Made by a program: the position numbers and the translations under genes. Positions 1 to 18,147 of a stretch of DNA of 64,000 bases are shown here, in pieces. The notes beneath the pieces were generated by a model. It ran no database searches. It saw only the letters and a program-made list of their open reading frames with translations, and was not told where the DNA came from. Origin of the DNA: a virus; the IMG/VR virus record IMGVR_UViG_3300048790_000078, positions 22,260-86,259 of that record, one strand, 5' to 3'. Within the stretch, counting starts at the first letter, position 1. The number at the start of each line of letters is the position of its first letter.

Positions 1-3000
1 ACCGGTTGAGCTGGCGGATGTAAGGCGTCGGCGAAATGTTCAGCGCATCGCAGAAGATCCGCGCCAGCCATTCATCGAAGTCGTCCTTCAACATCGCGCC
101 CTTCGTCTCGAATGGCGAGGCTCCGGTGTGCGGGATGAACTTCACGCGGCGCCGCTTCGCGAGGTTGCCGGCAGCCTGATCGAAGATATCCTGGAATCGG
201 CCGATCTGCAGTTCAGTCCACGTCTCCGGGACCTGGATGATCATCTCCGGTGTGTTGCCGCTCGTGAAGTACTCGGTCTGGCTGACCATTCGATTGACGG
301 CCATCACGGCGTAATCGAGACAACTCTGAACAGGAGAATTCCCACACCAAGATGGCTTGCCGTTGCGACGAACATACACGATTCCGTTCGGCACGGTGAC
401 GCAATGTATCGTTCCTGCGTAATGAACGGTCTTGGCGGTGACCGACATCGCCGTCGAGTGACGCTCTGATACGACGAAACTTTCCCTACACGCTGACGTA
501 TATGGCTTTCCTCCATTTGGGAAAACGGTCTCGCATGGCGGTCTTCGACGAGTAGATGCCGAGAACCCCAGTTTTTGCGCGATCTCCACAAGGTCGGATT
601 CCAATTTATGGCTAACAGTCGTAGCTCTCCAGGCGCTTCGCGGGTGTTTCCCGCGCCCTGATTTACTCGGCCTTTTTTCCAGGCCGCCATCTCCGGCCAT
701 GTAAAACTCCCAGAAAATACGCAGCTGGCGGGCCGTTGCTCCCTTAACTGCCAACGGCACATACTTGTCCGCCGCCTTGCCGAACGCTGCAAAGTAGCGC
801 CCGACTTGCGCGTAACTGCAAATAAAGGCGTGCCCGTTGTAGCCGTCTTTCCCTGTGAGATTGATGCGCTTTAACAAAGCACTGAACACAGGGAACGCGG
901 GAGATTTGGCGTCTTGATTTATTTCGATTCCTCCGGCAGAGCGCAGATTTCCTTCTGCCAGATATGCGCCAATCAAAGCACAGAAGTCATCGCCGCTTAT
1001 CGAGAGAGACCGTTCCTTCGGTTTGGTTTTCGGGAAGTCGACCATTCCTATCTCGACGCCACCGGACCAGACTGACGTGACGGGAATCTTTCGGACTGGG
1101 TTGTTTCCCTTCTGGAGCTCGGCCGCAGTCATTATTTTTTCGTAACGGCGACTCGTCTCCAGCCTGCCTGTCGGAGCCTCCACGAGCATTCTGTGCTCCG
1201 GCGTCACCATGATGTCCATGGATCGAGCGGTAAAGTGAATCATCTCGCCGTCTCTGTCGTAATGGTGAATCGCGCTCGGGCGCTCCCATTCAAATTCTTT
1301 CGTGAGGGTGTTTCTGGTAGCTACCCGCTCCCCGTGCAGCAGATTCCGAAATAGTTGAAAACCTCTCGTCTCGGTCAGGATTTCCGTCTGATCGTCGTAA
1401 CACTGCCCGTAAAGGAATGGCGCGCGCGGGTTTTGCACCGAATAGAACAGCGGCATGCAGGTGCCGTCAACGCTCCGACCGTTCACGACGATCGTGTGAT
1501 ACCCATTCGTCTGGCACGACGGGCACTCGCCGGAGGTCATGTTCACCGATGGAGAATTACCGCACCACGCCGGTTTTCCGTTTCGACGCACATAGAGATT
1601 GCCATTCGGGACTGTCGCGCAATAGACCATGCCTGAGTAATCAACGGTGCTTATATCTGGCAGGCATGTCTCTTTTTGAGACCGGAAACCTACGACGTAG
1701 TGGACTCCGCGATTGATCACGCGGCGTTCACCGTCTTCGAAAATTTCACTCTGTGTCGCCGGCTCTGTCCTGATAGAAGCCGACTTTCCAAGCTTAAGGG
1801 CGATCTCCTGAATTTGATCCGCAAGGCGCTTGCTGCTGGTCGAACATCGATCACGTCCAGCGTGCCCATCACCGAGGTGGAAGAATCTCCAAAAAATTCC
1901 CAGTTGCCTGCGCGTTGCGTTCATAACAACGTCCGGAATCCACTTGTCGGTGGCGTGACCGAACTGCTTCAGATAGCGAATTAAGCTGACGGAATTGAAG
2001 ACGTATGAATTTTCAATCCTACGCGTCCTGTTGCCTGTCACTCGCTTCAGAAGTTCACCGTATTCGATGTCTCCGCGTCCGCCGTGGATTTGTGAAATAG
2101 CAACGACTGCGCCGCGAGGATCATCATTGCACGATCCCTCTGCCATGTAAGCCCCCATGAAGGCGCAGAAATCGTCTCCAGACATCGTGATCGGCAGGAT
2201 GTCTTTTGGTTGGCGCCGTCTTCCACGAACAGAAATTACGGTAACGGCTTGATGCGCGGCGGCGAGGCTCAGCCCACACTTGGCTGCGATCTGCGAATAC
2301 GAATCGCCGGCAGAGCGAAGATCCACGGCTTTCTGATCGACAACAAGCCGAGCGAAATGCTTGTCGTCTTCGCGGCGGGGGAATCGCTGCGGGCCAATTT
2401 CAGTGCCATCCCATCCCGCCGTAAGCGGTACCCGTGTTGAAACCGTATAGTTTGCAGCAAGATCATCGGCGCGCAAGAATAAACCCGTCGCAGTTCTTTC
2501 GGCTTGACGGAAGAGACTATGAGGAACCCGGGTCACCATCATCCGGTGGTTGGGCGTAACAAGCAAGTCAACAAAACGAGACCCGAAAGACTGCATCGGA
2601 CCGTCATACATGTACCCTGTCAAATCGGTAGGCGCTTGCCACTCCAGAGAGCCAGCAGCGTTTCTTGTCGCGAATTCATCACTTTTGCTGGCCGCACTCC
2701 ACGGTAGCCACCCGCGGCGTGTGAGAACTTCGCTGTCTTCCGAATAGCACCCCTTGATCTGCTGAGCATAGGCGGGGTTCGGCGCGTTCGGGGACCAGCC
2801 CTGTTCGTCCCACATCAATTTGATCGTGGCGCCGTCGAGAATGCGGAGTGATTTGCAGACCCTCTGATCGTCCATCACCGGCCAGATGGCGAGCGCGTCG
2901 ATCACGAGCACCTCTTCGAGCAGCATGCTCAGCCACGCCATCCAGTCATGCTCCTGGTCTGGCTTCTCAAAGAACCGCGTCAGGTATTGCACGCGGGGAT

Positions 3001-3445
3001 CGGCGGCCGACCGCTTGTCGAAGTCCTTCGACTTCTCGCCGGGCAGCTTATCAACCTTCCAGACCAGCGGGATCTTGACGATCTGCCGCTTCCGGCGGTT
3101 GATACAGAGGCGCATCACGTTGACAGCATCGGCGAACGCGCGAAGCTGCGGGAAGCTCGGGCCGCCCTGCTCTGTCCGAGGCTGAGAGTTCATGTTCAGC
3201 GTCATCGGATAGTCGGTCACGCGGGGAAGCGTGCCGGGAGGTGCCTGAGGCTTCAGCGGTTGCCCGGGCCCGAAGTATGACGCGCCGGTCACCGTGTCGA
3301 TGTAGTCGCGCGCCACGTCGATGAACGACACCGTCCGCGGGTCGACCTGCACGGTCAGGGCGTTAGCGGGGATCGACGGCAGCCCGGTCTTTGTTCCTTC
3401 GAAGGCGCCTGTGGCGGCATCGAGAGCTTTTGCGAGGATACTCAT
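1..3445 (-). CDS. Phage portal protein precursor with two inteins (partial, runs off left edge)
   Basis: I translated one uninterrupted minus-strand frame from ATG at 3445 to the window edge, about 1,148 codons. Removing two inteins leaves 232 + 51 + 112 residues of a portal protein, the dodecameric head vertex through which DNA is packaged. Diagnostic extein text includes YAVMAVNRMVSQ, GNTPEMIIQVPETWT, GNLAKRRRVKFIP and CDALNISPTPYIRQLNR. The 51-residue middle extein carries a short CPSC...C insertion. The start overlaps the upstream stop (ATGA). The gene lies downstream of terL in the same operon, as expected. The C-terminus is outside the window. Confidence 0.9.
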   Translation of the reverse strand, partial: MSILAKALDAATGAFEGTKTGLPSIPANALTVQVDPRTVSFIDVARDYIDTVTGASYFGPGQPLKPQAPPGTLPRVTDYPMTLNMNSQPRTEQGGPSFPQLRAFADAVNVMRLCINRRKRQIVKIPLVWKVDKLPGEKSKDFDKRSAADPRVQYLTRFFEKPDQEHDWMAWLSMLLEEVLVIDALAIWPVMDDQRVCKSLRILDGATIKLMWDEQGWSPNAPNPAYAQQIKGCYSEDSEVLTRRGWLPWSAASKSDEFATRNAAGSLEWQAPTDLTGYMYDGPMQSFGSRFVDLLVTPNHRMMVTRVPHSLFRQAERTATGLFLRADDLAANYTVSTRVPLTAGWDGTEIGPQRFPRREDDKHFARLVVDQKAVDLRSAGDSYSQIAAKCGLSLAAAHQAVTVISVRGRRRQPKDILPITMSGDDFCAFMGAYMAEGSCNDDPRGAVVAISQIHGGRGDIEYGELLKRVTGNRTRRIENSYVFNSVSLIRYLKQFGHATDKWIPDVVMNATRRQLGIFWRFFHLGDGHAGRDRCSTSSKRLADQIQEIALKLGKSASIRTEPATQSEIFEDGERRVINRGVHYVVGFRSQKETCLPDISTVDYSGMVYCATVPNGNLYVRRNGKPAWCGNSPSVNMTSGECPSCQTNGYHTIVVNGRSVDGTCMPLFYSVQNPRAPFLYGQCYDDQTEILTETRGFQLFRNLLHGERVATRNTLTKEFEWERPSAIHHYDRDGEMIHFTARSMDIMVTPEHRMLVEAPTGRLETSRRYEKIMTAAELQKGNNPVRKIPVTSVWSGGVEIGMVDFPKTKPKERSLSISGDDFCALIGAYLAEGNLRSAGGIEINQDAKSPAFPVFSALLKRINLTGKDGYNGHAFICSYAQVGRYFAAFGKAADKYVPLAVKGATARQLRIFWEFYMAGDGGLEKRPSKSGRGKHPRSAWRATTVSHKLESDLVEIAQKLGFSASTRRRPPCETVFPNGGKPYTSACRESFVVSERHSTAMSVTAKTVHYAGTIHCVTVPNGIVYVRRNGKPSWCGNSPVQSCLDYAVMAVNRMVSQTEYFTSGNTPEMIIQVPETWTELQIGRFQDIFDQAAGNLAKRRRVKFIPHTGASPFETKGAMLKDDFDEWLARIFCDALNISPTPYIRQLNR
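338..1402 (-). other. Intein 2 in the portal protein (LAGLIDADG type, 355 aa)
   Basis: Second intein of the same portal frame. It starts at Cys after extein LYGQ (block A CYDDQTEILTETRGF), has block-B TPEHRMLV, DOD motifs LIGAYLAEG and FYMAGDGG, and ends VPNGIVYVRRNGKPSWCGN before extein Ser-Pro-Val. All expected splicing residues are present (Cys1, block B His, terminal Asn, +1 Ser), except that the penultimate residue is Gly. The endonuclease motifs look intact, so it may still home. Confidence 0.9.
1556..2749 (-). other. Intein 1 in the portal protein (LAGLIDADG type, 398 aa)
   Basis: Splices out of the portal precursor. It begins at Cys (codon 2749-2747) with block A text CYSEDSEVLTRRGW after an extein ending IKG. 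It has a block-B TPNHR motif. It contains a central DOD endonuclease with FMGAYMAEG and FFHLGDG half-motifs, a helix-turn-helix-like stretch (SYSQIAAKCGLSLAAAH), and ends VPNGNLYVRRNGK...WCGN, followed by Ser-Pro of the extein. The usual penultimate His is Gly here. The C-terminal end closely resembles intein 2, so the two are probably related. Confidence 0.9.
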
Positions 3446-3648
3446 GCGGGTGTCAACTCCTGAAGGTCAGCATACGCCCGCTCCATTGCATGACGAGCAG
3501 AGAGCAAATCAGCGTGCCAATCGATATTGCCGTCGAATCGGCCGTTCCGCTCCACGAAGCGCGCCAGCCGCAACAGACGTGCCTTGGCATCGCGCGCGAT
3601 CTTCAGGGCCGAATCGTAGGTTAGCGTCTCAACACTGGGGTATCTCAT
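3442..3648 (-). CDS. Small hypothetical protein (68 aa) upstream of portal
   Basis: Charged, predicted helical protein rich in Arg, Ala and Leu (for example RLLRLARFVERNGRF). Its stop overlaps the portal start (ATGA) and its own start overlaps the previous stop, so it is translationally coupled inside the packaging operon. No family recognised. Confidence 0.7.
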   Translation of the reverse strand: MRYPSVETLTYDSALKIARDAKARLLRLARFVERNGRFDGNIDWHADLLSARHAMERAYADLQELTPA

Positions 3649-3899
3649 GCGGCAACTCCAGCGAGAGAGAGAACGTCGAGCGTCGCCGGACAGGCAGGGG
3701 AGTCCTGTCGATGTTTGTCGGCAACGGCCTCTTGCGCCCCATGCAGCGTGGTCGGGATCCGGCTCAGCGGGATGTTGCCGCTGGCCTTGCAGTCGAGGCA
3801 GTTCCAGCGAACGTGCCGCTCGAACTCGCCGACATTGATCCGGCCGGGCTTCACAACCCGGTACGCGCTACCGTCTTCCATCACCCGAACGGTGTTCAT
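3645..3899 (-). CDS. Small hypothetical protein (84 aa) with CxxC
   Basis: Contains WNCLDCKASGNIPLSRIP, one CxxC pair with nearby His residues, perhaps a metal site. It overlaps the next gene by ATGA. The ATG at 3899 has no good ribosome-binding site of its own. It lies inside a 23-codon frame with a strong AAAGGAGG site (3868-3939), so coupled initiation is likely. Confidence 0.65.
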   Translation of the reverse strand: MNTVRVMEDGSAYRVVKPGRINVGEFERHVRWNCLDCKASGNIPLSRIPTTLHGAQEAVADKHRQDSPACPATLDVLSLAGVAA

Positions 3900-3939
3900 G
3901 GAGACTATGATAAATCAGGCCGGGATGCTGCTGGGACAT
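3868..3939 (-). CDS. Putative 23-aa leader peptide with strong Shine-Dalgarno
   Basis: ATG at 3939 follows AAAGGAGGGGT, one of the strongest ribosome sites in this region. The frame ends 23 codons later, inside the start of the 84-aa gene. It may be a leader that delivers ribosomes to the ATG at 3899. No homology seen; the peptide itself may be dispensable. Confidence 0.35.
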   Translation of the reverse strand: MSQQHPGLIYHSLHEHRSGDGRR

Positions 3940-4402
3940 ACCCCTCCTTTGGTCCTTCAGACCAAGCTGCCCTGATAGCAGTTCTTTGAAAGGGAATTGG
4001 CGATTCTTCTTCCTGCCCTGTCCCGGACCATTTTCGGGAGGGCCGCAGCTTTACCTGAGTCGCTATCCCAGGTAACTGCCCGCGCCGTCCCCGCGCGTGC
4101 GTCGCAAGTCTGCCGGTGAACCGAAGTGTCCCGGATTGCGTCTGGATTGAAGAATCGGCATAAACCCAACTATTGCGGGATTAGCTATCACTTGTGATTG
4201 GTCCCCGCTTTCGCCCCAAGGAATCTCCATAAAGCGAAACCTTGCGGGTGGATCGCCCGCTCGACGAAGTGGGTTTAAGGGTGATGCGGTTGATTTCCCG
4301 CGTGCTGCTTCACTTCGAAATCATGATAGCATAGAGGTGCTGCTTCACAATTCCGCCCGGCCGCCAGCCTGATAACCTGGAACACGGCCGGGTTTCGTTT
4401 CT
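3940..4402. other. 463-bp non-coding gap inside the packaging operon
   Basis: No convincing reading frame on either strand. On the minus strand it holds a promoter-like pair, TTGTGA-16-TATCAT (4351-4324), and potential stems (for example TTTCGC pairing with GCGAAA, about 4205-4245). I looked for a tRNA and found no T-loop or acceptor pairing. It may be a regulatory leader or structured RNA for the portal transcript. Confidence 0.4.
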
Positions 4403-4597
4403 TTACGAGAGCGAGATCCAGAGATCTTTCTGGAAGTGGAGCGGACAACCGCAAGGGCATTTGCCTGTCAGGTAGGTTGCCACCCAGTACGCTTTGAATT
4501 CGTTCGGCGTATTCTCCTGAGGTTTCAGGTGGATGGCTTTCAGGCGGAACTCGATCTCGTTGCCGCGCAGCGCCTGTGGTTCCTTCGGCTTTCTCAT
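4403..4597 (-). CDS. Small Cys-rich hypothetical protein (64 aa)
   Basis: Starts at ATG 4597, which overlaps the stop of the membrane-protein gene (ATGA). The C-terminal half contains CPCGCPLHF, a compact Cys cluster that could bind zinc. No family recognised. It is the last gene before the 463-bp gap. Confidence 0.6.
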   Translation of the reverse strand: MRKPKEPQALRGNEIEFRLKAIHLKPQENTPNEFKAYWVATYLTGKCPCGCPLHFQKDLWISLS

Positions 4598-4848
4598 CGA
4601 AGCGGTTTCACGCTGATGGCCACCAGCAGGATCGTCAGAACGCCGCCAGCGATCCACGCGGCTGGCACGGACCAGAAGTGAACTCCCCACGCAATCGCCC
4701 CGCACGCGGCCACCGTCGCGAAGTCTGTCAGCATGAACGTCACGAGCTTGACGATTCCCAGCCCGGCGGTTCGGGACCAGCTCCGGCAGAGAACGAGCAA
4801 GGACTGCAGCATCGGTACTACGGTGGCGGAAAGTTTCTTTGCGATCAT
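4594..4848 (-). CDS. Small membrane protein, holin-like (84 aa)
   Basis: ATG at 4848 is preceded by AGGAAC. The protein has a basic N-terminus and two hydrophobic segments in the second half (LTDFATVAACGAIAWGVHF and AWIAGGVLTILLVAISV). Size and topology would fit a holin, but no lysin gene is visible nearby, so this is only one possibility. Confidence 0.55.
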   Translation of the reverse strand: MIAKKLSATVVPMLQSLLVLCRSWSRTAGLGIVKLVTFMLTDFATVAACGAIAWGVHFWSVPAAWIAGGVLTILLVAISVKPLR

Positions 4849-4964
4849 TTTGTTCCTGTTCGAGTAGTTCCCATCGAGATCCGGATTCTGCCGCTTAACT
4901 ACGACGAAACCACCGGCTGCGTATGACCTGGAGAAATGAGCCGCCCGCATACGGCCCGAGCAAT

Positions 4965-5243
4965 CTACCCGAACTTGAAGTTTGCTGGCAACACCGGCCG
5001 CACCTTGCGGACTTCCACTGCGATCGGTCGGCCCTGCGATCCTTCCGACAGGCGGAACTCAACCTGGTCGCCTTCGAGGATACTGCCATGGTCCGCCACG
5101 TTCTTGCTGTGGCAGAACACCTCGGAGCCGTCAGGGAGAATAATGAAGCCGAAATTACGTTGTGGGTTTGGTTCGTTCCACTGAAACCACTTTACGGTTC
5201 CTCGGACACGAACTGCAGGATCGATGGATGTCGTTGAAGGCAT
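4965..5243 (-). CDS. Cold-shock-domain protein (CspA family)
   Basis: 92 aa with a single cold-shock OB fold: VRGTVKWFQWN at the first strand, NFGFI as RNP1 and VFCHSKNV as RNP2, then a GDQVEFRL strand. Family members bind single-stranded RNA or DNA and melt RNA structure. The usual lysine-glycine before FGFI is replaced by RN. It sits immediately downstream of terL, an unusual place for a Csp, and may act on late transcripts. Confidence 0.85.
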   Translation of the reverse strand: MPSTTSIDPAVRVRGTVKWFQWNEPNPQRNFGFIILPDGSEVFCHSKNVADHGSILEGDQVEFRLSEGSQGRPIAVEVRKVRPVLPANFKFG

Positions 5244-5269
5244 GCAGCTTTGAGAACCATGTTACACCG

Positions 5270-6805
5270 TCAGAGCATAAAAGTGGAATTAGTGGAGATA
5301 TCCTCGAATCCCGGTTGCTTGATTTCCGGTTCGTCGGAGAAGGGTTTGAAGACTCCGGAGACGGCCGTCTGGTTCTTGCGCGCGGCGGCATCGCTGTCGG
5401 CCTGCCCCTCATAGAACTTCATCAGCGCTTCAGCCGAAGATAGATCGAAGAGCTTCGATACTGCGTACACCAGCACGTCCAGCCTGTTCGGAGATCGCCC
5501 GAGACGCTGTTTGATCTCCGGCGTGGTATCGCCCTGTTTGACGGAGCACATCTCCTCTTCGAGCGCATAGAAGTTCCCGCAGTGAACGATCTTTGTCCCA
5601 TCGTTCTGCGTGTACAGCAGGCTGACGGGCTCGGCTCGGACTGCCTTCCCGTGCGAGGCGTTGACCATCTCGACCGGTGTGTTCGGGTTGGCATGCCGAA
5701 GGACTTCAAGGACCATCGCGCCGCCGTAGTTCTTTTCAGCGACCACCAGATCGGCGCCCCACTTGATCCTGAGATCCTCCACCTTGCGCGCCCAGGCGGC
5801 CGGTGGCCCGTTCATTGTGCCATCTTCGAGCACGTAACCTCGATCGTCGATTCCCTTGCCAACCACGATGATGCCGACGTCGTCACCCTGCCCGATCCCT
5901 TCACCTGACGTGCCCGATGGATCGACGGCAATGATGATCCGCCGCATCGGCACCGGAAGCGATTGCGGAGTCGCCTGGTTGCCGCGGGCGGCCGAGATCG
6001 CACTCAGCGTCCATAGGGCGCCGGCGAGTTCATCCTGATCCATCCCTTCGAGGAAGCGTAACCGCATTGCCAGCGGCATCGCGGCCAGCGACCGCATGTA
6101 CTCTTCCGAGAGGTGCGGATTGTCTTTCGGGTTCATCCGCAAGCTGGCGTATAGGGACCGGTCCAATCTGCGCTCGCGTTCCATCGGGTCAAGCCCGAGA
6201 TCGTACTCGACATATGACCAGTGGCTCTTGCCGACTGGGTTGAGATCGTCGTATTCCTTCTGCAGCAACCGGCCCTTTGGATTCTCCGACGTTGCCATGT
6301 CCGGATTGAAGACTTCCTGCGAAAGCCGGGTGCGCGTCTTCAGGATGGACTGGTAGGAGATCTGCGAGACTTCATTATGATGCAGCCCGACAAATTCACG
6401 GCCGAGGATCTTGTCCACGCGCTCTTTATCGTCGAGGCCGCCGATCCAGTATTCCGCTTTGTTCCAGAACTCCAGGCGCATCTCGCCGCGGGCGTTGACC
6501 TGCCGAATGTTTCCGTCAGCGGCGCTGAGGCCAGGGTAGAAGTTCGCGAGCACCTTGGGAATAGTGTCGAGCCACAAGCTGTTGACGGCATCGACCATGT
6601 GCAGCCGGAGACTTGCCTGCCGCGCGCTGGGGAAGTGAATGGCGCGGCCGATCATCTGGCGCACGATGATGGTTGTCTTCGTCGATCGCGCTCCACCCAC
6701 GAGCTTGATGTACCGCTTCGTCGGGTCGCGCATCAGCCCCAGAGCTTCGTTCTGCTTTGGGGTGATCTGAAAGATCGGCGACGCCGTGAGGTTCGGAGGC
6801 GTCAC
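5270..6805 (-). CDS. terL: Terminase large subunit (ATPase-nuclease packaging motor)
   Basis: 511 aa, full length for the family. The N-terminal ATPase has a Walker A-like GGARSTKTT near residue 37 and a strand EFVGLHHNEVSQ in the Walker B region. The C-terminal RNase H-like nuclease carries the acidic motifs IIAVDPSGTSG, DLVVAEKNYGG and SPNRLDVLVYAVSKL. It cuts concatemeric DNA and pumps it through the portal, whose gene lies downstream. Start overlaps the preceding small gene by ATGA. Confidence 0.95.
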   Translation of the reverse strand: MTPPNLTASPIFQITPKQNEALGLMRDPTKRYIKLVGGARSTKTTIIVRQMIGRAIHFPSARQASLRLHMVDAVNSLWLDTIPKVLANFYPGLSAADGNIRQVNARGEMRLEFWNKAEYWIGGLDDKERVDKILGREFVGLHHNEVSQISYQSILKTRTRLSQEVFNPDMATSENPKGRLLQKEYDDLNPVGKSHWSYVEYDLGLDPMERERRLDRSLYASLRMNPKDNPHLSEEYMRSLAAMPLAMRLRFLEGMDQDELAGALWTLSAISAARGNQATPQSLPVPMRRIIIAVDPSGTSGEGIGQGDDVGIIVVGKGIDDRGYVLEDGTMNGPPAAWARKVEDLRIKWGADLVVAEKNYGGAMVLEVLRHANPNTPVEMVNASHGKAVRAEPVSLLYTQNDGTKIVHCGNFYALEEEMCSVKQGDTTPEIKQRLGRSPNRLDVLVYAVSKLFDLSSAEALMKFYEGQADSDAAARKNQTAVSGVFKPFSDEPEIKQPGFEDISTNSTFML

Positions 6806-6996
6806 TGCTTTGGACCGAACCGAGCCCGAAGATCCGCCATGTCGCTGGCCCGCTGCACACGTTTGGCCTTGTCGGTCGAGAGCTCCTCTCCTGTTCGGCG
6901 TGACTTCCAGATGCGCCGGATGCCGCCAGGTACGACATCCTCACGTACCACGTCCCAGCCGCGCGAGTGGAGGTAATCTGTCGTCGGCAGTTTCAT
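6802..6996 (-). CDS. Small basic hypothetical protein (64 aa)
   Basis: Contains YLHSRGWDVVREDVVPGG and a basic C-terminus. Coupled by ATGA to terL downstream and to the 144-aa gene upstream. No family recognised; its conserved operon position suggests a packaging-associated role. Confidence 0.65.
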   Translation of the reverse strand: MKLPTTDYLHSRGWDVVREDVVPGGIRRIWKSRRTGEELSTDKAKRVQRASDMADLRARFGPKQ

Positions 6997-7427
6997 TGGC
7001 CTGCGATGAAGTTCTCAACCAGAGCCGTGGTCTCCGCGCTGGGCACGTACTCTTCGCAGTTCTGGATCCCAGCATGGCGGTAGCTCGGCGAGCCCATGCC
7101 GACCGTCACCTTCAGCCAGCCGTCGCCTGGCCGCATCTCGCTGGACAGAACATGCCTGCCGTCGAAATCAGCTTCCTCCTCGACTCCACCGAACCCGCCC
7201 TGATTGTCGATATAGAACGTCTGCCCGCGGTACACGACCTTCACCGCCTCGCGGATCTGCCCTTCCATCCCTTCGCACCACCAGCCCGGCTTCGCGGCGC
7301 CCATGACCACCTTGACCTTCGAGCATTCCGCTGGCTCACCGTTCCAGAACGTGTGCGACATGCGCGCGGCCCGGGAGAACGGCTTCACCCGCTTTGGCTT
7401 CTTGAGGAACATGCGACTGGCGCTCAT
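6993..7427 (-). CDS. Hypothetical protein (144 aa)
   Basis: Basic N-terminus (MSASRMFLKKPKRVKPF) followed by a beta-rich, Trp- and Gly-rich body (KPGWWCEGMEG, YIDNQGGFGGV). Coupled by ATGA at both ends. Possibly DNA- or virion-associated; function unknown. Confidence 0.65.
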   Translation of the reverse strand: MSASRMFLKKPKRVKPFSRAARMSHTFWNGEPAECSKVKVVMGAAKPGWWCEGMEGQIREAVKVVYRGQTFYIDNQGGFGGVEEEADFDGRHVLSSEMRPGDGWLKVTVGMGSPSYRHAGIQNCEEYVPSAETTALVENFIAGQ

Positions 7428-7495
7428 TGGCCAAAGCGCAAAAGAGGCCGGGGCCGCACCAGCCAGAACTTGTCAGGCGACACCGCAATTCTCAT
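7424..7495 (-). CDS. Tiny 23-aa protein coupled on both sides
   Basis: ATG at 7495 overlaps the upstream stop (ATGA) and its own stop overlaps the downstream ATG (ATGA), so it exactly bridges two genes that otherwise would be separated by 64 bp. Peptide is basic with an RPRPLLRF stretch. It may be a functional microprotein or simply a ribosome bridge. Confidence 0.5.
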   Translation of the reverse strand: MRIAVSPDKFWLVRPRPLLRFGQ

Positions 7496-7749
7496 TTGTG
7501 CCCCGCGAAGAAGAGCGGCGGCGCCACCGCGTCAAAATTTCTCTTATGGATCTTCACCGTCCCTGCCGGCGTCGCCTCGCACGTCATCTGGAACCACTCA
7601 TCGATCGTGGACATGCCGTCGATCTCGGAGCCGGACTTCACCCGCATCATCCATCTCACCAGATTACCCTCGCGCGAAGTCACGGCCACCATGTCTTCGC
7701 CCTTGGTTAGCAGGTCGCCGGGCTGTGGGTCACGTCTTGAATCAGCCAT
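7492..7749 (-). CDS. Hypothetical protein (85 aa)
   Basis: Begins MADSRRDPQPGDLLTKGEDM, which resembles small beta-barrel phage proteins, and has an EWFQMTCEATPAG stretch. TAATG overlap with the previous stop, ATGA overlap with the next ORF. Unrecognised. Confidence 0.65.
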   Translation of the reverse strand: MADSRRDPQPGDLLTKGEDMVAVTSREGNLVRWMMRVKSGSEIDGMSTIDEWFQMTCEATPAGTVKIHKRNFDAVAPPLFFAGHK

Positions 7750-7964
7750 TACTGACCACCTCTCGCTTTCAGGATCGCTTCGCTGGCCTCAAACGATTCG
7801 TCGGATTCCACCGTGGAGCACGTCGGACAGGGAATCCCGGCAGCGTATCCGTGCGGGCACTCGTTCGGCCCGCCGGCAGATTGCCATGGCACGAACTCTT
7901 TCGGGTCCACGCCGTCGATCGCCTTCGCGGCTACCGGGCGGGTTGGATCGAAGTCTTCCATCAT
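7749..7964 (-). CDS. Small zinc-ribbon-like protein (71 aa)
   Basis: Contains CPHGYAAGIPCPTC, a C-x9-CxxC knuckle. Start placed at ATG 7964, where ATGA overlaps the stop of the membrane-protein gene. Likely a structural zinc site; role unknown. Confidence 0.65.
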   Translation of the reverse strand: MMEDFDPTRPVAAKAIDGVDPKEFVPWQSAGGPNECPHGYAAGIPCPTCSTVESDESFEASEAILKARGGQ

Positions 7965-8209
7965 CGATACCACCACGACCACACTGCGGTTCCTGCCACC
8001 ATGAGCGCTACGCCGTAAACCACAAACATGACGAACGCAGGTATCAGATGGTCAAACGTCCGATTGAACGGCTCCCACGTTGCATCGAAGGCGGCTGTCT
8101 GCCGATCGGTTCCACGCGCTTTATTGAAGGCATCTATGGCTTTGCCGTGATCCCTTACCGCACGGGCCCACAGCCACGGCCCTTGCAGGAACACGATTAC
8201 CTTTCTCAT
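7961..8209 (-). CDS. Small membrane-anchored protein (82 aa)
   Basis: Starts at ATG 8209, overlapping the upstream stop (TAATG). Soluble basic N-terminus, then one strong hydrophobic segment near the C-terminus (IPAFVMFVVYGVALMVAG) ending in aromatic residues. Could be an accessory lysis or virion membrane protein. Confidence 0.6.
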   Translation of the reverse strand: MRKVIVFLQGPWLWARAVRDHGKAIDAFNKARGTDRQTAAFDATWEPFNRTFDHLIPAFVMFVVYGVALMVAGTAVWSWWYR

Positions 8210-8961
8210 TATTCCCTCCACCACTCAAACTCTGCGAGCGCCCACTCGCGAATCTGGGCAGCTATTTCCTCTTCGGTAGCGCCCTGATCGACCTCGATTT
8301 CATCATGGATTTTGCAACCCTGTAGGCGCATTGCGCAGCCCACCTTGATCTTAACGGTCGTCAGTTGTCCGGTTTCAGCGGACGACTCGGCGATGTTCGG
8401 TAAAGCCCGTGAGGTTAATCGCGGGTTGTATTCCGTCCACGGCCCGTCTGCGCATGGGCCAGGCACCGCTTCTTCGACCTCCTCGAACTCAGCGTCGATG
8501 ATCGTTTCGGCCGGACGCGGCGCGGCGGGCGCCGGTAGCGCGGCCAGCGGGCGATTGACCGATATGGGCGCGGCCTTTGCGACCGGCAACGCGCGAACAC
8601 GAGGCTCTTCGTCGCTCTCCTGGTAGCCGGAAAGGAACTTGAGCGCTGAGGCGATGCCGTCCAAATCCGCTATTTTCGTCGTATTTGCCGCGAGCTGCAT
8701 GTACTGCTGTGCGGTGCGATCCGATATCTTCGGGCAGTTCTGCTTCAGCCATGGAAGCCATTGACCGTGCTTGACTTGCTGTTTTGCCTCGATCAGCAAT
8801 TCGCCGACATGGACAGCGCGTTTCAGCGCTCCTTGAAAGAACTCTTCAACGCTGAAGTGCGCTGCGTTGATTCGCTCGGCCAGCGTCAACTTGGGTTCTG
8901 CCGCTGAGGACTCTCGCATCCGCCGCATTCGATCTGAAGTGGACTCGACAGCCTGCTTCAT
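8209..8961 (-). CDS. DUF3102-like protein (250 aa)
   Basis: The N-terminal 100 residues carry the DUF3102 pattern: HVGELLIEAKQQVKHGQW, WLKQNCPKISDRTAQQYMQL, then AALKFLSG-type text. The family occurs in phages and plasmids and has no firm biochemical role; the helix-rich region resembles DNA-associated proteins. A long Ala/Pro-rich linker precedes a basic-acidic C-terminal domain. TAATG and ATGA overlaps with neighbours. Confidence 0.75.
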   Translation of the reverse strand: MKQAVESTSDRMRRMRESSAAEPKLTLAERINAAHFSVEEFFQGALKRAVHVGELLIEAKQQVKHGQWLPWLKQNCPKISDRTAQQYMQLAANTTKIADLDGIASALKFLSGYQESDEEPRVRALPVAKAAPISVNRPLAALPAPAAPRPAETIIDAEFEEVEEAVPGPCADGPWTEYNPRLTSRALPNIAESSAETGQLTTVKIKVGCAMRLQGCKIHDEIEVDQGATEEEIAAQIREWALAEFEWWRE

Positions 8962-9239
8962 TTCGCCCCTTTGATCGCATCGATGTAGCCTGCCGTCTGG
9001 TCCGGCTTTTCAGCTTTCGGTTTGCGTCTCTTCGGGGCGAACACTTCACGCGCCGACGCCCTGACCAAAGCTTTCTTTCGAGCGCTCCGACCGCACGTCG
9101 CGACACCTGGACCGTTGAGGACTTCAGACAGGATATTGACGGCGAGCGTCGAATGCGGAATCCCGCGCTTCCCAGCTTCGTCCCGGAGGATGGCCAGATC
9201 CGATTCCGGCATCCGCATCTGTACTACAGGAGATGGCAT
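8958..9239 (-). CDS. Probable ribbon-helix-helix-like DNA-binding protein (93 aa)
   Basis: N-terminal strand VVQMRMPESDLAILRDEAGKR followed by two helices is typical of Arc/CopG-type folds. The C-terminal half is a basic tail (FAPKRRKPKAEKP). ATGA overlap with the DUF3102 gene. It may regulate the packaging operon or bind near the terminase site. Confidence 0.55.
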   Translation of the reverse strand: MPSPVVQMRMPESDLAILRDEAGKRGIPHSTLAVNILSEVLNGPGVATCGRSARKKALVRASAREVFAPKRRKPKAEKPDQTAGYIDAIKGAK

Positions 9240-9279
9240 GCGTACAGCCTAACACCTTACCTGTAATACAAGCAAGCGC

Positions 9280-9924
9280 CTACCACTGCCCCTTATCGTC
9301 AGCGGGGCAAGACGCCATTTTAACGATTTGCACGTTCGTCTGGTTGATCTGCTGGTTCAGCGTCCGCGCGTCCACATTCACGCTCATCCCCTCCACGAAG
9401 CCCATCATCCGGCCGATCTGGTATTCGAGCGCACTCATCTCCTTCAGCAAGGCATTGTCCTGCCGGAGCTCGGGAACCGCGGTCTTGCCGACCATCCGCA
9501 TCTCGATCACCACGAAGCCGGTTGTGATCCCCGGCAGCTTGCGCAAGTTCGGCATCTCGCCCTGTTTGGCGCCTGTCAGCCGGCGGACCATCTCGTTGGC
9601 CGGATCCGAGTAGTTCGCGATCCTGTCGTCGCGGATCTGGCAGAGCGCCTTCCACCGGTTGTACTTCTCGCGGACCTGGCCGTCCTTGTGCGCGATCGCA
9701 ATCTCGGTGTTCGTGATGTCCGCTTCACCCCGAAGGCGCCGCGCGACGTCCGTCTGGAGTTCTGCAATTCTGGCAACAATTGCAGTCTTTTGTTGCAATT
9801 TCCAGGCACTTGCATGGGCAGCGTTGGCGCTGAACCCGGCAGCTATGTATGATTCTGCTGGAGTTAGCCCTTTTGCAATCCCGTTGCAAAAAAGCTCGTG
9901 ACGTTGCTTTTCAAGTACAGGCAC
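9280..9924 (-). CDS. Terminase small subunit-like protein (214 aa)
   Basis: GTG start. The N-terminus (RHELFCNGIAKGLTPAESYI, then AAGFSANAAHASAWKL) matches the helix-turn-helix region of small terminases that recognise the packaging site. A predicted coiled or helical body follows (VARIAELQTDVARRLRGEADI). It lies upstream of terL in the same operon but is separated from it by eight small genes. The call is by pattern, not by alignment. Confidence 0.65.
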   Translation of the reverse strand: MPVLEKQRHELFCNGIAKGLTPAESYIAAGFSANAAHASAWKLQQKTAIVARIAELQTDVARRLRGEADITNTEIAIAHKDGQVREKYNRWKALCQIRDDRIANYSDPANEMVRRLTGAKQGEMPNLRKLPGITTGFVVIEMRMVGKTAVPELRQDNALLKEMSALEYQIGRMMGFVEGMSVNVDARTLNQQINQTNVQIVKMASCPADDKGQW

Positions 9925-9986
9925 GTCACCAGATTACCCTGGAGCGGTTTCTGGCGCATCGTCCATGCCGCATCCCTGACCGAAAA

Positions 9987-10319
9987 TCAGTCCGTACTAA
10001 CGCGATAGAAATACCGCGCGGTCACTGCCGCCCATGGCGCCGCGGCCTTGAATTCGGCCTTTGTGATCTGGCAAAGGATGTAGAACGGCTGGCTCTCGAA
10101 CGTGTAGGTACGCCGGCCGTCCGAGACCTGAAACTCCACCAGATAGACCTCCTGGCGCGCGTATATCGCGGATCGTTTGCGGTTACGTGGCGAGCCCACC
10201 ATCGACTGCAAGAGTTTCTGGTTGCTGGTGCATACCAGATACGGCATCCGGTTGAGGATCTCGATGGCCTTCTCGCGCGACATTTGCGGCGAGAGGGCTG
10301 TGGCTGCGGCGGCGCTCAT
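9987..10319 (-). CDS. Hypothetical protein (110 aa)
   Basis: Contains REKAIEILNRMPYLVC and a beta-strand-rich second half (EVYLVEFQVSDGRRTYTF, PFYILCQI). No family recognised. About 60 bp of featureless sequence separate it from the small-terminase-like gene. Confidence 0.6.
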   Translation of the reverse strand: MSAAAATALSPQMSREKAIEILNRMPYLVCTSNQKLLQSMVGSPRNRKRSAIYARQEVYLVEFQVSDGRRTYTFESQPFYILCQITKAEFKAAAPWAAVTARYFYRVSTD

Positions 10320-10328
10320 GCGTTCAGG

Positions 10329-10595
10329 TTAGCCGAAGAACTTGTCCAGTGTTTCGCCATCGGACACCTCTTTCTTCGTTTTCGGCCGGCGTCGCACTTC
10401 CAGACCGATATCCGGCACTGCTTCGGCGAGCACGGCCCACGTATTGCCGACCTTGATGCCGCGGAGCTTTCCTTGTCGGAGAAGACGCTTTATCGACTCC
10501 GTGGTCTTGCCTACGTTCCGGGCCGCCACGGTGATGCTGACGTAGTCAGGCACTGATCCGCGCTCCACTGAATACCGCCACGCGCTTAGAGGCAT
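10329..10595 (-). CDS. Helix-turn-helix protein, MerR/excisionase-like (88 aa)
   Basis: DYVSITVAARNVGKTTESI then RRLLRQGKL-type text: the first helix pair plus short wing is the usual HTH_17/excisionase layout. Start chosen at ATG 10595; an upstream in-frame ATG at 10646 and a GTG further down are possible alternatives. Probably a transcription or packaging-site DNA binder. Confidence 0.6.
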   Translation of the reverse strand: MPLSAWRYSVERGSVPDYVSITVAARNVGKTTESIKRLLRQGKLRGIKVGNTWAVLAEAVPDIGLEVRRRPKTKKEVSDGETLDKFFG

Positions 10596-10624
10596 TGCAC
10601 AAAACAACAGTACATCACTATTTA
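10595..10624 (+). promoter_or_regulatory. Predicted sigma70-type promoter for two rightward genes
   Basis: TTGCAC (10595-10600), 18-bp spacer, TATTTA (10619-10624). It precedes the only plus-strand genes in this otherwise leftward operon. Prediction from consensus only. Confidence 0.35.
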
Positions 10625-10696
10625 GCGCCTTGCCGCAACAAAACATTCCAGGTTACACTCGGACTTGGACAACGAATCGAGAGGAGGGCCACCAAC

Positions 10697-10948
10697 GTGC
10701 AGGATCAAAACCGCGATATGCAAATCCATCCTTCCGTCCAGCCGTCCACCCCGCGATACGTTGTTCGAGTGTCGCGGGTGTTGACGTGCGCCTCCGATCG
10801 CGGCACGGTGCAGATCCTGTCTCAGCCGTCGCCGACAGCTGAGCGCGAGCTCACCATCCAGCACGAGGACTTCGCTACCTGCCGGAAGTGCTTCGGTGAA
10901 GCGGGTCACCACCTCGACTCTTGCCCGGCGGTGCTGCAATGCCTGTGA
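10697..10948 (+). CDS. Small Cys/His protein on the opposite strand (83 aa)
   Basis: GTG at 10697 follows a GAGGAGGG ribosome site. The C-terminus has CRKCFGEAGHHLDSCP, a CxxC...H...C zinc-knuckle pattern. It runs against the surrounding leftward operon and overlaps the next plus-strand gene. Possibly a moron-type insertion. Confidence 0.6.
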   Translation: MQDQNRDMQIHPSVQPSTPRYVVRVSRVLTCASDRGTVQILSQPSPTAERELTIQHEDFATCRKCFGEAGHHLDSCPAVLQCL

Positions 10949-11100
10949 AACCGGCCTGTACGACAGCCGAGCGGGTTTACGGGCCTTGCGCTTCCGGTGG
11001 CGGCGTCGAGGGCGCTCACTCCACCCCACCGGTCGCGCACGTTGTGGATGGGCACGCGTTCTGTCCTCAGTGCTGTCCGAACTGCGCCGCGCGGCCTTAA
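10939..11100 (+). CDS. Small Cys-rich protein (53 aa)
   Basis: ATG at 10939 overlaps the end of the previous plus-strand gene. Contains CPQCCPNC near the C-terminus, a likely metal site, and HVVDGHAF before it. Unrecognised. Confidence 0.5.
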   Translation: MPVKPACTTAERVYGPCASGGGVEGAHSTPPVAHVVDGHAFCPQCCPNCAARP

Positions 11101-11133
11101 ACCTGCCGCACCAGAATCGCTGAGTTCCTTCAA

Positions 11134-11152
11134 AGGGCCGGGAACCGGCCTT
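11134..11152. terminator. GC-rich hairpin between convergent genes
   Basis: GGCCGG-GAA-CCGGCC stem-loop 34 bp after the plus-strand pair and before the leftward methyltransferase-like gene. It has only a short T-rich flank (CTTTG on the minus strand), so termination activity is uncertain. Confidence 0.35.
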
Positions 11153-11214
11153 CGGGCGCTAACGTGGGCGTTGTAATGCCGTGCGTGGCCTGAGAAGCAA
11201 GATGATTTGCGTGT

Positions 11215-11853
11215 TCACTCCGTCATTTGTTGGCTTCGGACAAATACCGCCGAATAATGCGTCATCTGCTGTGCCCATCCGCAGTGGTAGCAGGTCCAGT
11301 TTGAGATCCGGTACCCGCGGAGCCCCGCCAGCTTCTCCATCTGGAACCGGCATACCTCGGCATACCGCCTATGCAGGTGATCGTTACCGAAGTGGTCCAC
11401 GGCGCCTGTCTTTTGCAGCGATTTAGATTCCCAGCCTGATTTCCCGCAGAGATACTGCCGCAGCCCATCGGTAACCACCATGGCGAGGATCGGCGGAAAG
11501 GCCCGCGACGACGTGAAGAAGCCTTCGAGAAGAGGATTCGGATCACCCCATGGATCCACGTCGACGAAGTTGACCTGCAGGTGGGCCCCGGCGCCCTTTG
11601 CCACCGCGGCGACGCTGTCAGCCCGATAGACGGCCCAGCCCGGCCGCTGCTTTGCCAGCGCTTCGCACTTTTCCGGATCCTTCTCGATCACCACGCCGCT
11701 CTCCACGTCGCTGTAGCAGGCCTTCCAGATCTCTCCGAAGCCTCCGTTCGTCTCCATCACCACCGGACGCACCGGAAGCGCCCGGAGCGCGGCACGCCGC
11801 AGGTTCACTTTGAGCAGGATGGTCGCGTTGTCTTTTTTTGGCGCGGTCGGCAT
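11215..11853 (-). CDS. Class I methyltransferase, Trm1-like motif (212 aa)
   Basis: SAM-binding motif I VMETNGGFGEIW, an acidic strand GVVIEKDP, and motif IV VDVDPWGDP, close to the DPFG signature of tRNA guanine-26 N2-methyltransferase Trm1. It is much shorter than Trm1 (lacks its zinc and C-terminal domains). Substrate may be tRNA, another RNA or DNA. The C-terminus contains a WTCYHCGW CxxC motif. TAATG overlap with the ParB-like gene. Confidence 0.6.
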   Translation of the reverse strand: MPTAPKKDNATILLKVNLRRAALRALPVRPVVMETNGGFGEIWKACYSDVESGVVIEKDPEKCEALAKQRPGWAVYRADSVAAVAKGAGAHLQVNFVDVDPWGDPNPLLEGFFTSSRAFPPILAMVVTDGLRQYLCGKSGWESKSLQKTGAVDHFGNDHLHRRYAEVCRFQMEKLAGLRGYRISNWTCYHCGWAQQMTHYSAVFVRSQQMTE

Positions 11854-12501
11854 TACTGGAGGCTGATCCCGCCAACCTCGGCGTTCTTCGCTCGGATGTA
11901 GGCCTGGCAGATCTCCATCACCGCCGCCGCCCTGGTCGACTGCCCGGCCAACCTGATGGCTTCCTCGAACGCTGCCAGCGATTGCATGTACACCACCACA
12001 TGCAGCATTTTATCCCGATCCGCGTTCCTCGAAGCATGCCCCGGGCCGGCGGCCGGGCCCCCAGCCGCGCCAGCGATCATCTCCCCGAGCTCCTCTGGGT
12101 CGAAGCCGGTTAACGACAAATCAAAGCCGATTTCACTCAGATCCGCCATTTCGCCGGCGAGCAGGCCGACGTCGAACTCTGCTTCGGAGTGGGATCGGTT
12201 TTCCATTATCCGAAGCCCACGGATCTTCTCCGGCGACAGCCCGCGCGCGACGTGCACCGGCACGGTCTTCAGCCCCAGCTTGATCGAAGCCAGCCTTCTG
12301 ACGTGCCCGATGACTATAACCCCGCTTTCCTCGACAACGATCGGCTGCACGAACCCGTAGGCCTGAATGCTGGCGGCCACCTTGTCGATTGCCGATTGCG
12401 GTATCACCCGCGCATTTTTCTTGTACGGGCGTTAGACGTTCGATCTCCCAGATCTCGATGGACAGATCGGCGGATGGGGACGGCGGGCGCGCGGCTGACA
12501 T
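11853..12501 (-). CDS. ParB-like nuclease-domain protein with apparent frameshift
   Basis: Read through one frameshift, the protein is MSAARPPSPSADLSIEIWEI + ERLTP | YKKNARVIPQSAIDKV..., the classic ParB/Srx N-domain, followed by IVIGHVRRLASIKLG and ENRSHSEAEFD. The shift lies in a CCC run at about 12427-12430 (one base too many). The upstream ATG (12501) has a good GGAAG site. Without the shift, a GTG at 12407 could give a truncated 184-aa product. A C-terminal domain (LHVVVYMQSLAAFEEAIRLA) recurs in the ParB-like genes at 33-35 kb. Confidence 0.75.
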
Positions 12502-12695
12502 TCGACTTCCAGTATGTCCTGGTGATCATAGACGGCGCAAACCTGGAGGGTTCCAAAGTCTTCCATTGGGCGGGTTTTCCAATGGCGCGATGGCGGGTTA
12601 CCAAAGCAGGCCAGTTTCTACAAGCATAGGAGCCAATCCGTAGACGTACCGGCTCAAACCCACGCCAATTCACCTGTCGGACGGCTCCAAACCTA

Positions 12696-12974
12696 TCAAA
12701 ACAAAGGGTTTACTGGAGTCCAAAATAAGGCTCTCAAGTCACTCATTCTAAAGGGTTTAGAGATTTCCACAGTTTCGGCTAGTTTTCCACATTTCGGGCG
12801 GAATTGTGCACAGGAAATCCACAGTCAGCAGGCTGAAAATCGCTTCTAAGTAACTCAAAACAAAGCGTTTAACAAAACTTGTGGATAACTCAGAATTCTA
12901 CAGCCAGGGCGGTTTTCATCCTCGGTTTCAGGGTATTCTATAAGAGTAGTAAGTAATACAAAACAAACGGGTTA
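12696..12974 (+). repeat. Iteron-like direct repeats, core AAAGsGTTTA
   Basis: TCAAAACAAAGGGTTTA at 12696-12712 and TCAAAACAAAGCGTTTA at 12855-12871 differ by one base. A third, diverged copy, ACAAAACAAACGGGTTA, lies at 12958-12974, and a half copy AAAGGGTTTA at 12750-12759. Together with the interspersed DnaA-like boxes this is the architecture of an iteron-type origin. No initiator gene is identified next to it. Confidence 0.6.
12763..12888. other. Cluster of DnaA-box-like sites
   Basis: A perfect box TTATCCACA on the minus strand (12880-12888) plus plus-strand ATTTCCACA (12763-12771), TTTTCCACA (12783-12791), TTGTGCACA (12804-12812) and AAATCCACA (12815-12823). Five sites in 126 bp is far above chance in this GC-rich genome. 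It suggests host DnaA recruitment at the divergence point. Confidence 0.6.
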
Positions 12975-13427
12975 CGACACGCGGCGCGGCTTTTTTTGCG
13001 CGTCGGGACGGCCAGGACGGCGTCTAGTGACTCCTCGGCAATTTGATCTTTCACAATTCGACAACCAAAGCGAGACTAGGCGCATACGCGTCCTGTGGTC
13101 GCGGAAACCATTTCAACGGGTTTTAGATGTTGACGGGGAGAATATCTCACTAACCTATCGTCATAAGTCCTGGCAGTCTCCAGGCTGGCGAGCAGGGCCC
13201 TGGATTAGAGAACACCCAAACCAACAGAATCTCAGTCCCAAGACTTTGCGGACGTCCTGAGAGATTGTTTCCTGCCCTGGGAAGTGACCAACTGTAAAGA
13301 GCGTATTTGAGCCTAACAAGGGCGTATATAGGGTAGTTTCCCAAGCGGGAGATATCGGGCGGATTCTTCGTTCGGTCCTACAGACTATAGCCTGGCACGC
13401 GTCGCGCGGGTTTGTCGAGACAGATAT

Positions 13428-13456
13428 TTGACAACTAAATAGAGCTCTGAAATCAT
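13428..13456 (+). promoter_or_regulatory. Predicted rightward promoter
   Basis: TTGACA (13428-13433), 17-bp spacer, AATCAT (13451-13456). It lies about 420 bp before the first rightward gene. A second TTGACA at 13491 lacks a clear -10. Consensus-based prediction. Confidence 0.35.
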
Positions 13457-13875
13457 GGACTTAGAACGTATGAGTGCTTTTTGTCGCGGTTTGACAGAAT
13501 GACAAGGCGGCGACTCCATGAGGCGAGCAAACCTTCAAATCAGCGTATAGGCGAGAGCCTTTTGATTCCGACGAAATGATGTATCCCTCGCGGGTGTTTT
13601 CGGTTATGTTGCGAGCATTGAGAGACAGGAAAAGTTTACTCCCAATAGCCAATAGCCGGAGCCTTCATAGTTGCGTCAACAGTAATCAGCGCGAGATTTG
13701 ACGGCCGGTTGAGAGCCGGTCGAAATGTTCCAGGGCGGACGCATAAGGCGAAAGGCATCGCAGCGTCCAAACTGGAAAATGATCCGAGAAATTGCTACCT
13801 CCCCGTGGTTCGGATCGTAAACGTCAGCCGCGCGGCTTGACGGCCAAATGCAAACCCTCCCGAAAGGCAAAATCC

Positions 13876-14004
13876 ATGAAACGAAATATCGCAATAGCTA
13901 TGCAAGCCCGTGCTGCCAAAATCATCCGCCTGAATCAGATGCGGCGCAATTCCCGTGTAATCTCCAAGCATTCGGTCGTGCCAGCGACCCACGGAAAAGC
14001 GTAG
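13876..14004 (+). CDS. Small basic protein, first gene of rightward operon (42 aa)
   Basis: ATG at 13876 follows CCCGAAAGGCAAAATCC. The peptide is strongly basic (AMQARAAKIIRLNQMRRNS) and could bind nucleic acid. Its stop codon TAG is the centre of a CGTAGACG site. Upstream lies the leader element shared with genes at 14140 and 14746. Confidence 0.55.
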   Translation: MKRNIAIAMQARAAKIIRLNQMRRNSRVISKHSVVPATHGKA

Positions 14005-14011
14005 ACGCGCC

Positions 14012-14095
14012 ATGCGGGCCGGATGGCCGGTCCGCTTTCAAATGTCCATCAAAACACCAGCTTCCCCGCAGCGATGGACGGGCAACGGAGCGTAG
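14012..14095 (+). CDS. Possible 27-aa ORF ending in a CGTAGACG site
   Basis: ATG at 14012 to a GCG-TAG stop at 14093-14095. The 5-prime half coincides with a strong hairpin (14014-14035), so the frame may be incidental. No ribosome site is obvious. Kept at low confidence because its stop is again embedded in CGTAGACG. Confidence 0.25.
   Translation: MRAGWPVRFQMSIKTPASPQRWTGNGA
14014..14038 (+). terminator. Hairpin followed by TTT
   Basis: GCGGGCCGG-ATGG-CCGGTCCGC, a 9-bp stem with one G-T pair and a 4-base loop, followed by TTT. It stands between two CGTAGACG sites (14000 and 14091). May act as attenuator for the gene at 14140. Confidence 0.45.
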
Positions 14096-14139
14096 ACGTT
14101 CCGGCAATGGTGAACCTTCCCGAAAGTGAACAAACGAAC

Positions 14140-14610
14140 ATGAAAACGACTGACCTGCAGTTCAAGAATGAAACCTCAGACAAGACCTATACCGTCGCGA
14201 TCGACGGCCTGGAGGTGCTCTACATCTTCGGCAAGCGCGAAGGAACGAAGACGACCATGTTCCAGATCGCGGATGACAAGGCGGAAGCCCGCCAGCTCCA
14301 TGACGATTGCGTCAAAGGCCTGCTGAAGAAAGGCTACACGCTGGCGGCCGGTTCGGTGGCGCCGAAGACTCCGACCGATATCGCGGAGTTCCGGCGGGCC
14401 GCGGCTCTGAAAGCATGGGCGACCATGCGCGCCAACGGCATCAAGCCGGCGGAAGCGAAAGTGAAACGCTCGGAACCCATGACGGCGGAGGAACGCTCGG
14501 ACGCAGCGAAGCGCGCCTGGATCACCATTCGGGCGAATCGCGAAGCGGCTGCCAAAGCGGTCAAGGCCGAGGCGCGCGCGGCGAAGAAGCTCGCGAAGGT
14601 CGCGGCGTAG
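14140..14610 (+). CDS. WGR-like domain protein with SDAAKRAW motifs (156 aa)
   Basis: Residues about 8-70 resemble a WGR domain (VAIDGLEVLYIFGKREGTK, then LHDDCVKGLLKKGYTLA), a DNA-end-sensing fold known from PARPs. The C-terminal half is Lys/Ala-rich with two AAK/ALKAW repeats (AAALKAWATMRANG, SDAAKRAWITIRANRE) of the type seen in many phage proteins. Start at ATG 14140 after the shared CCTTCCCGAAAG leader; an upstream ATG at 14023 lies in the hairpin region. Confidence 0.65.
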   Translation: MKTTDLQFKNETSDKTYTVAIDGLEVLYIFGKREGTKTTMFQIADDKAEARQLHDDCVKGLLKKGYTLAAGSVAPKTPTDIAEFRRAAALKAWATMRANGIKPAEAKVKRSEPMTAEERSDAAKRAWITIRANREAAAKAVKAEARAAKKLAKVAA

Positions 14611-14630
14611 ACGTTTCGATCCTGTAGTGC

Positions 14631-14660
14631 CCGGGCGGTGAGTTTACCCGCCCGGTTTTC
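14631..14660 (+). terminator. Rho-independent terminator
   Basis: CCGGGCGG (14631-14638), 9-base loop, CCGCCCGG (14648-14655), then TTTTC. It follows the 14140 gene by 20 bp and a CGTAGACG site at its stop codon. It would end or attenuate transcripts before the gene at 14746. Confidence 0.7.
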
Positions 14661-14745
14661 CAATGCCTGCAAAATCGCAGCCTTCCCGTGGCGCAGGTGA
14701 TCTGTTACCAATGCGAAACCTTCCGAAAGTGAGATCCATCCATCC

Positions 14746-14955
14746 ATGACCGCTTCAATGAAATCCCGCGCGGATCGCGCGACCATCGACCTGATTCGCA
14801 TGTCGGCGAGCAAGCTCGTAGACGACACGAAAATTCATCTGGTGACACCGCTTCGCCCGCCCATGAAGCCGGCGACGGCCACCATCGGCGAATGCCTGGC
14901 GTTTGCCGGCCGCCTGGGGCAGTTCTCCAGCGTCACGATTCAGGCGGTGCGCTGA
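14746..14955 (+). CDS. Small hypothetical protein (69 aa)
   Basis: Follows the CCTTCCGAAAGTGAG leader. Contains SASKLVDDTKIHLVTPL; the LVD is encoded by a CGTAGACG site. The C-terminal ECLAFAGRLGQFSS stretch looks helical. Unrecognised. Confidence 0.55.
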   Translation: MTASMKSRADRATIDLIRMSASKLVDDTKIHLVTPLRPPMKPATATIGECLAFAGRLGQFSSVTIQAVR

Positions 14956-14956
14956 C

Positions 14957-16643: not shown

Positions 16644-16864
16644 CATCGCAAATGCCGGCGCTTCCAACCGATCTGCCGCTGTTCGCTGAGCCGGAATGTC
16701 CCTGCGGCTTCGCGCACGCCACACTGAAGCGCCTCATGCTGCGCGAGCGCCGCACGCTGGCCGAATGCCAGGCCAGTAACCATCCGGCAGCCGAAGACAT
16801 GGCCGCTGGCGTAGACGCCCGCTGCGCGAAGCTGCAATGGCATCTGGACGGTGGCTGCGCATGA
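16640..16864 (+). CDS. Small hypothetical protein (74 aa)
   Basis: Has CPCGFAHATLKRLMLRERRT and a C-terminal HLDGGCA. ATGA-coupled to the ASCH gene. Contains one in-frame CGTAGACG (Val-Asp). Confidence 0.55.
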   Translation: MTSQMPALPTDLPLFAEPECPCGFAHATLKRLMLRERRTLAECQASNHPAAEDMAAGVDARCAKLQWHLDGGCA

Positions 16865-17765: not shown

Positions 17766-17790
17766 CCCGTCAACCGAAAGGACAAACGAA

Positions 17791-17925: not shown

Positions 17926-17930
17926 CGGAC

Positions 17931-18137: not shown

Positions 18138-18147
18138 AAGGAGAACC

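Follow-up and report, generated by a model that had tools for sequence, protein, structure and literature searches.

We found that the portal gene of a bacterial virus, for the DNA gate of its capsid, very probably encodes a single portal protein carrying two separately homed class 1 inteins that would splice autocatalytically; both the splicing and the endonuclease cutting are predicted from sequence. Two site-specific lineages of portal inteins would have homed separately into conserved sites 153 bp apart, and at each homing step the empty site would have been cut and the gap repaired from an intein-bearing allele. After translation, each intein would excise itself by an N-S shift at Cys1, transfer to Ser+1, and cyclisation of the terminal Asn. 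This splicing is presumably fast, and ligation of the three exteins would give a portal of 564 amino acid residues, which would then assemble.

Materials and methods

The window, that is, the whole stretch of 64,000 nucleotides analysed here, spans bases 22260-86259 of a virus record of the IMG/VR type that is 86,259 bases long. The intein boundaries were set by the conserved ends and by comparison with relatives. The intein-family profile consisted of 22 rows, including both inteins of the window. In the case of the viral relatives, a scan with the spliced extein alone gave none, as the patterns were too specific; relatives were gathered with a portal alignment and patterns upstream of both insertion sites, and 57 of them were sampled. 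For the scan of IMG/VR with the intein profile, we used the best 80 of at least 521 matches, which biased the sample towards relatives of intein 2, and added the loci obtained earlier.

The portal gene and its product

The sequence-only reading had described a minus-strand frame open from position 3445 to the window edge, with two complete inteins inside a portal gene. The coordinates were correct, and the frame continues for 509 bases past the edge. Read from the record, the full gene (contig 21751-25704) encodes 1317 amino acid residues, with no stop codon or frameshift across its 1317 codons; it is cut by the window edge only and is whole in the genome. The parts of the gene and the neighbouring terminase gene are as follows.

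1..3445, minus strand: portal precursor ORF, in-window part; AGGAG, resembling a ribosome-binding site, upstream of the ATG
2750..3445, minus strand: N-extein, residues 1-232 (232 residues); aligns with intein-free portals
1556..2749, minus strand: intein 1, residues 233-630 (398 residues); site 1, QQIKG^SPSVN; Cys1, TPNH, Asn398, Ser+1
1403..1555, minus strand: middle extein, 51 residues between the inteins; C-x2-C-x5-H-x10-C loop native to the portal clade
338..1402, minus strand: intein 2, residues 682-1036 (355 residues); site 2, LYGQ^SPVQS, within the conserved motif YGxSPVE; Cys1, TPEH, Asn355, Ser+1
1..337, minus strand: C-extein, in-window part (281 residues when whole)
5270..6805, minus strand: terminase large subunit gene without an intein, upstream of the portal gene; Terminase_6C, E 3e-10

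The joined exteins matched a profile of 48 intein-free relatives over the whole length (E 4e-130) and were 36% identical to annotated portals of Brevundimonas phages. With the portal alignment as the query, the solved portal 8q7d was matched (E 3e-4). The match of the spliced extein to PF04860 reached 30.8 bits against a curated cut-off of 39.1 (E 2e-7), and the NCBIfam search gave only a weak portal match. On these alignments, the joined exteins are assigned to one caudoviral portal family, and the question raised earlier of whether the extein segments come from a single family is answered by the end-to-end match. Most relatives of the portal in host genomes come from Alphaproteobacteria, which suggests an alphaproteobacterial host.

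A Cys-rich loop (C-x2-C-x5-H ... C) lies just before the YGxSP motif in the portals of the window, L043, L055, L056, and L057. Its His is absent in L057, and the loop is missing in relatives outside the clade of the window portal. Perhaps it is a metal-binding loop. The intein-like string YHTIVVNG had suggested that the middle extein might hold a third, degenerate intein; we rejected this, because the intein-free L055, L056, and L057 carry a similar Cys-rich insertion.

Downstream of the portal gene, two adjacent proteins (L002 1291-4906, minus strand; contig 16291-19906) contain four copies of FNPNH followed by G-x-F. One of these proteins also has 2'-5' RNA ligase-like and ADP-ribosyltransferase-like domains. 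The repeated motif may serve as a tag for targeting or cleavage.

Architecture and class of the inteins

The presence of two complete inteins was borne out by the profile search, which gave exactly two full-length copies in the ORF (about 370 bits each, E < 1e-110); the same search, which covered the window and contig 1-15000, gave no further full copy of this family.

Class 1 inteins have Cys or Ser at position 1, a T-x-x-H motif, and a C-terminal Asn followed by Cys, Ser, or Thr; their penultimate residue is typically His. Both inteins of the window start with CY and finish with WCGN|S. Cys1 is invariant across the 22-row family alignment, the block B motif (TPNH in intein 1 and TPEH in intein 2) is near-invariant in the family, and the terminal Asn is followed by Ser+1 at both C-terminal junctions. 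The penultimate residue in both inteins is Gly, not His, as in nearly all members of the family. According to the report on mycobacteriophage inteins, the RDF intein with a penultimate Gly splices fully, and replacement of that Gly by His impaired splicing (PMC5050341). Because the RDF intein splices fully with Gly, the penultimate His is no strict requirement; by analogy, the Gly is a family trait that should be compatible with good splicing.

The conserved splicing residues, together with the sporadic occurrence of the inteins, fit ordinary, unregulated splicing. In class 3 inteins, the position-1 nucleophile is absent, and a Trp-Cys-Thr triplet (B:12, F:4, and G:5) is found. A class 3 or hybrid mechanism was rejected: both inteins have Cys1, and with Met at B:12 and Cys at G:5 they lack the triplet. 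The F:4 Cys is present in the window inteins and is near-universal in the family alongside Cys1.

The AlphaFold models of both inteins were confident (pLDDT 89 for intein 1 and 91 for intein 2), and the closest solved structures to both were the endonuclease-bearing inteins 7qsu, PI-SceI, and PI-PfuI. The precursor also matched LAGLIDADG_3 (E 6e-7), and the following elements were located.

2213..2362, minus strand: helical insert of intein 1, residues about 130-179 (about 50 residues), resembling a helix-turn-helix; helices from the model, weak HTH_23 match below the cut-off
2135..2161, minus strand: LAGLIDADG motif 1 of intein 1, FMGAYMAEG, which retains the acidic residue
1865..1891, minus strand: LAGLIDADG motif 2 of intein 1, WRFFHLGDG, which retains the acidic residue
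950..976, minus strand: LAGLIDADG motif 1 of intein 2, LIGAYLAEG
686..712, minus strand: LAGLIDADG motif 2 of intein 2, WEFYMAGDG

The acidic residues of the motifs in both inteins are Glu (AEG) and Asp (GDG). The endonuclease domains are apparently intact, and would be expected to cut. Intein 2 is without the helical insert seen in intein 1. From these motifs and models, both are complete class 1 inteins with a HINT fold and an endonuclease insertion, and they are predicted to splice. Site-2 inteins of this lineage in L045, L108, L153, and L163 end in Gln (WTSQ, WTKQ), not Asn.

Empty sites and portal inteins in other viruses

Most of the sampled relatives (54 of 57) were intein-free, and an intein was present in three; none of the 57 had a two-intein portal. 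L043 has an intein exactly at site 1, and L045 and L108 have inteins exactly at site 2. L043 (IMGVR_UViG_3300044823_000288) belongs to the same portal clade as the window, and its site 1 is filled by an intein 57% identical to that of the window, whereas its site 2 is empty. Its extein is 92% identical to that of the intein-free L055. In the DNA alignment of the two, L055 is continuous, and L043 is interrupted at site 1 by exactly 1206 bases, corresponding to the 402-codon intein. L055 and L057 have a native Ser after KG; in the clade of the window portal, the nucleophile at site 1 was thus probably in place before the intein arrived. Conservation was in the top 3% of stretches at site 2 and in about the top quarter at site 1.

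The best 80 of at least 521 matches in the IMG/VR scan, together with the earlier loci, contained at least 41 distinct complete inteins in at least 38 portal ORFs. Eight or more insertion sites are represented, among them KG^SP, YGx^SP, Y^TxGN, ENW^TA, DG^TI, and AYQ^S. Among the matches listed, at least three other portals have two inteins: L122 at site 2 and ENW^TA, L131 at site 2 (where the contig ends within the intein) and Y^TEGS, and L196 at the N-terminal FWF^SA and Y^TSGN. As in the window, the site-2 intein of L122 (IMGVR_UViG_3300050026_000895) is of the intein 2 lineage, but its other intein is found further downstream, at ENW^TAEQ, and site 1 is empty. Portal inteins of mycobacteriophages had also been reported previously (PMC5050341). 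The initial statement that portal inteins are uncommon thus has to be withdrawn: they are not rare, though a single portal is usually without any. The portal gene is a hotspot for inteins, which occupy at least eight sites in it and entered some of these independently more than once; double occupancy of portals arose in different site combinations.

We also observed other inteins outside portal genes. The third intein of this phage is in a DnaB-type replicative helicase of 889 residues (window 39938-42607, minus strand), with Pfam matches to Intein_splicing (E 3e-17) and LAGLIDADG_3 (E 1e-12). The portal-intein profile gave only a weak partial match to this gene (E 5e-6), and the DnaB intein apparently belongs to a different family from the portal inteins. 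L187 and L190 each have two inteins in a single large ORF resembling phage RNA polymerase subunits. In the case of L042, an ORF from near 3916, probably for a portal-type protein, has two intein-like domains abutting each other (YAN|AYDENTEIL) with no extein between them, the second without Cys1; the arrangement resembles a tandem or nested intein.

Splicing and capsid assembly

The sequence-only reading had also proposed that splicing times capsid assembly. On this proposal, the precursor would wait for a cue before splicing, and the cue would thereby set the moment at which portal rings and capsids form. Both inteins break conserved portal segments, and an unspliced precursor should therefore not assemble. 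Conditional splicing is known for some inteins, such as the DnaB inteins of M. smegmatis (PMC6195587, abstract), and the two inteins of the terminase of cyanophage Mic1 were proposed as sensors (PMC7156551). Against such a timer, the inteins are sporadic among the sampled relatives, none of which has two, and the double-intein portals differ in their site combination. Moreover, all splicing residues are conserved, and no cue-sensing feature was identified. We consider the timer improbable, and the proposal was not upheld. Slightly less probable still is a dependence of portal supply, and hence of capsid initiation, on slow or conditional double splicing ordered with the help of the metal-binding-like C-x2-C-x5-H-x10-C loop. 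It is plausible that splicing must come before assembly of the dodecamer. Because both sites are in conserved segments, it is reasonable to expect that an unspliced portal would be unable to form the ring.

Origin of the two inteins

In the intein tree, intein 1 was sister to the site-1 intein of L043 (100/100), and intein 2 grouped with the site-2 inteins of L122, L124, and L125 and with the intein of L003 (100/100). The L003 portal looks like a different, DUF1073-like type, with its intein at a seemingly corresponding WGVS motif. The site-2 inteins formed at least three separate groups. The site labels required 16 changes on the tree versus 29.2 in shuffles; the site correlates with the phylogeny. 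An apparent site switch was seen between the related portal inteins of L138 (site 2) and L144 (site 3), which are placed side by side (100/99). The third-position G+C was 0.56 and 0.61 in the inteins and 0.83, 0.80, and 0.74 in the exteins, and the lower values of both inteins fit a foreign origin.

The tree grouping, the correlation of site with phylogeny, and the third-position G+C argue for two separate homing events and not for an internal duplication, in which one intein would have been copied from the other and moved to the second site of the same gene. The two inteins are of one broad family, with 30% BLAST identity and similar ends, but each joins the inteins at its own site in other phages on the tree; duplication within the gene is thus very improbable. 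A recent duplication is ruled out by the tree; the two may share an ancient common ancestor. Just as improbable is a merging of two single-intein alleles of a mixed population into one contig, which the IMG/VR type of the source might allow, since the reading frame is kept across both extein junctions, the two inteins are too dissimilar in sequence to provoke a misjoin, and portals with two inteins were found again in independent metagenomes (L122, L131, and L196).

Comparison with known systems

Portal inteins (PMC5050341) and two inteins in one phage terminase gene (PMC7156551, PMC7886860) are already known. No report of a double-intein portal was found in the searchable open-access literature. 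The PORT and TerL inteins of mycobacteriophages resemble those of the window in being class 1, in residing in head-packaging proteins, and in commonly having a non-His penultimate residue, including Gly (PMC5050341). In contrast, no double-intein portal was found in the passages of that report that were consulted, and the host-genome relatives of the window portal are mostly alphaproteobacterial and not mycobacterial. Cyanophage Mic1 (PMC7156551) and the crAss-like OBYQ01000140 (PMC7886860) have, like the window, two inteins in one phage packaging gene; in both, the gene is that of the terminase large subunit, not the portal. An endonuclease domain was described for the larger intein of Mic1, whereas both inteins of the window have one.

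The closely spaced MCM-a and MCM-d inteins of Haloferax mcm likewise are two endonuclease-bearing inteins in one gene (PMC10643990). There, homing of the two neighbouring inteins together is poor when the target allele is empty, and homing is efficient when the target already has one of them. If this behaviour holds in phages, the double allele of the portal would have been built from single-intein alleles. Both single-intein alleles were found, in different phages, and empty alleles were found too. These portals thus offer phage material for the question raised in Haloferax, namely whether the homing of one intein is impeded by its neighbour, in which case doubles would arise only via singles. 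The Haloferax gene differs in encoding an archaeal helicase, and homing was tested by experiment there, whereas in the phage portal it is deduced from sequence comparison.
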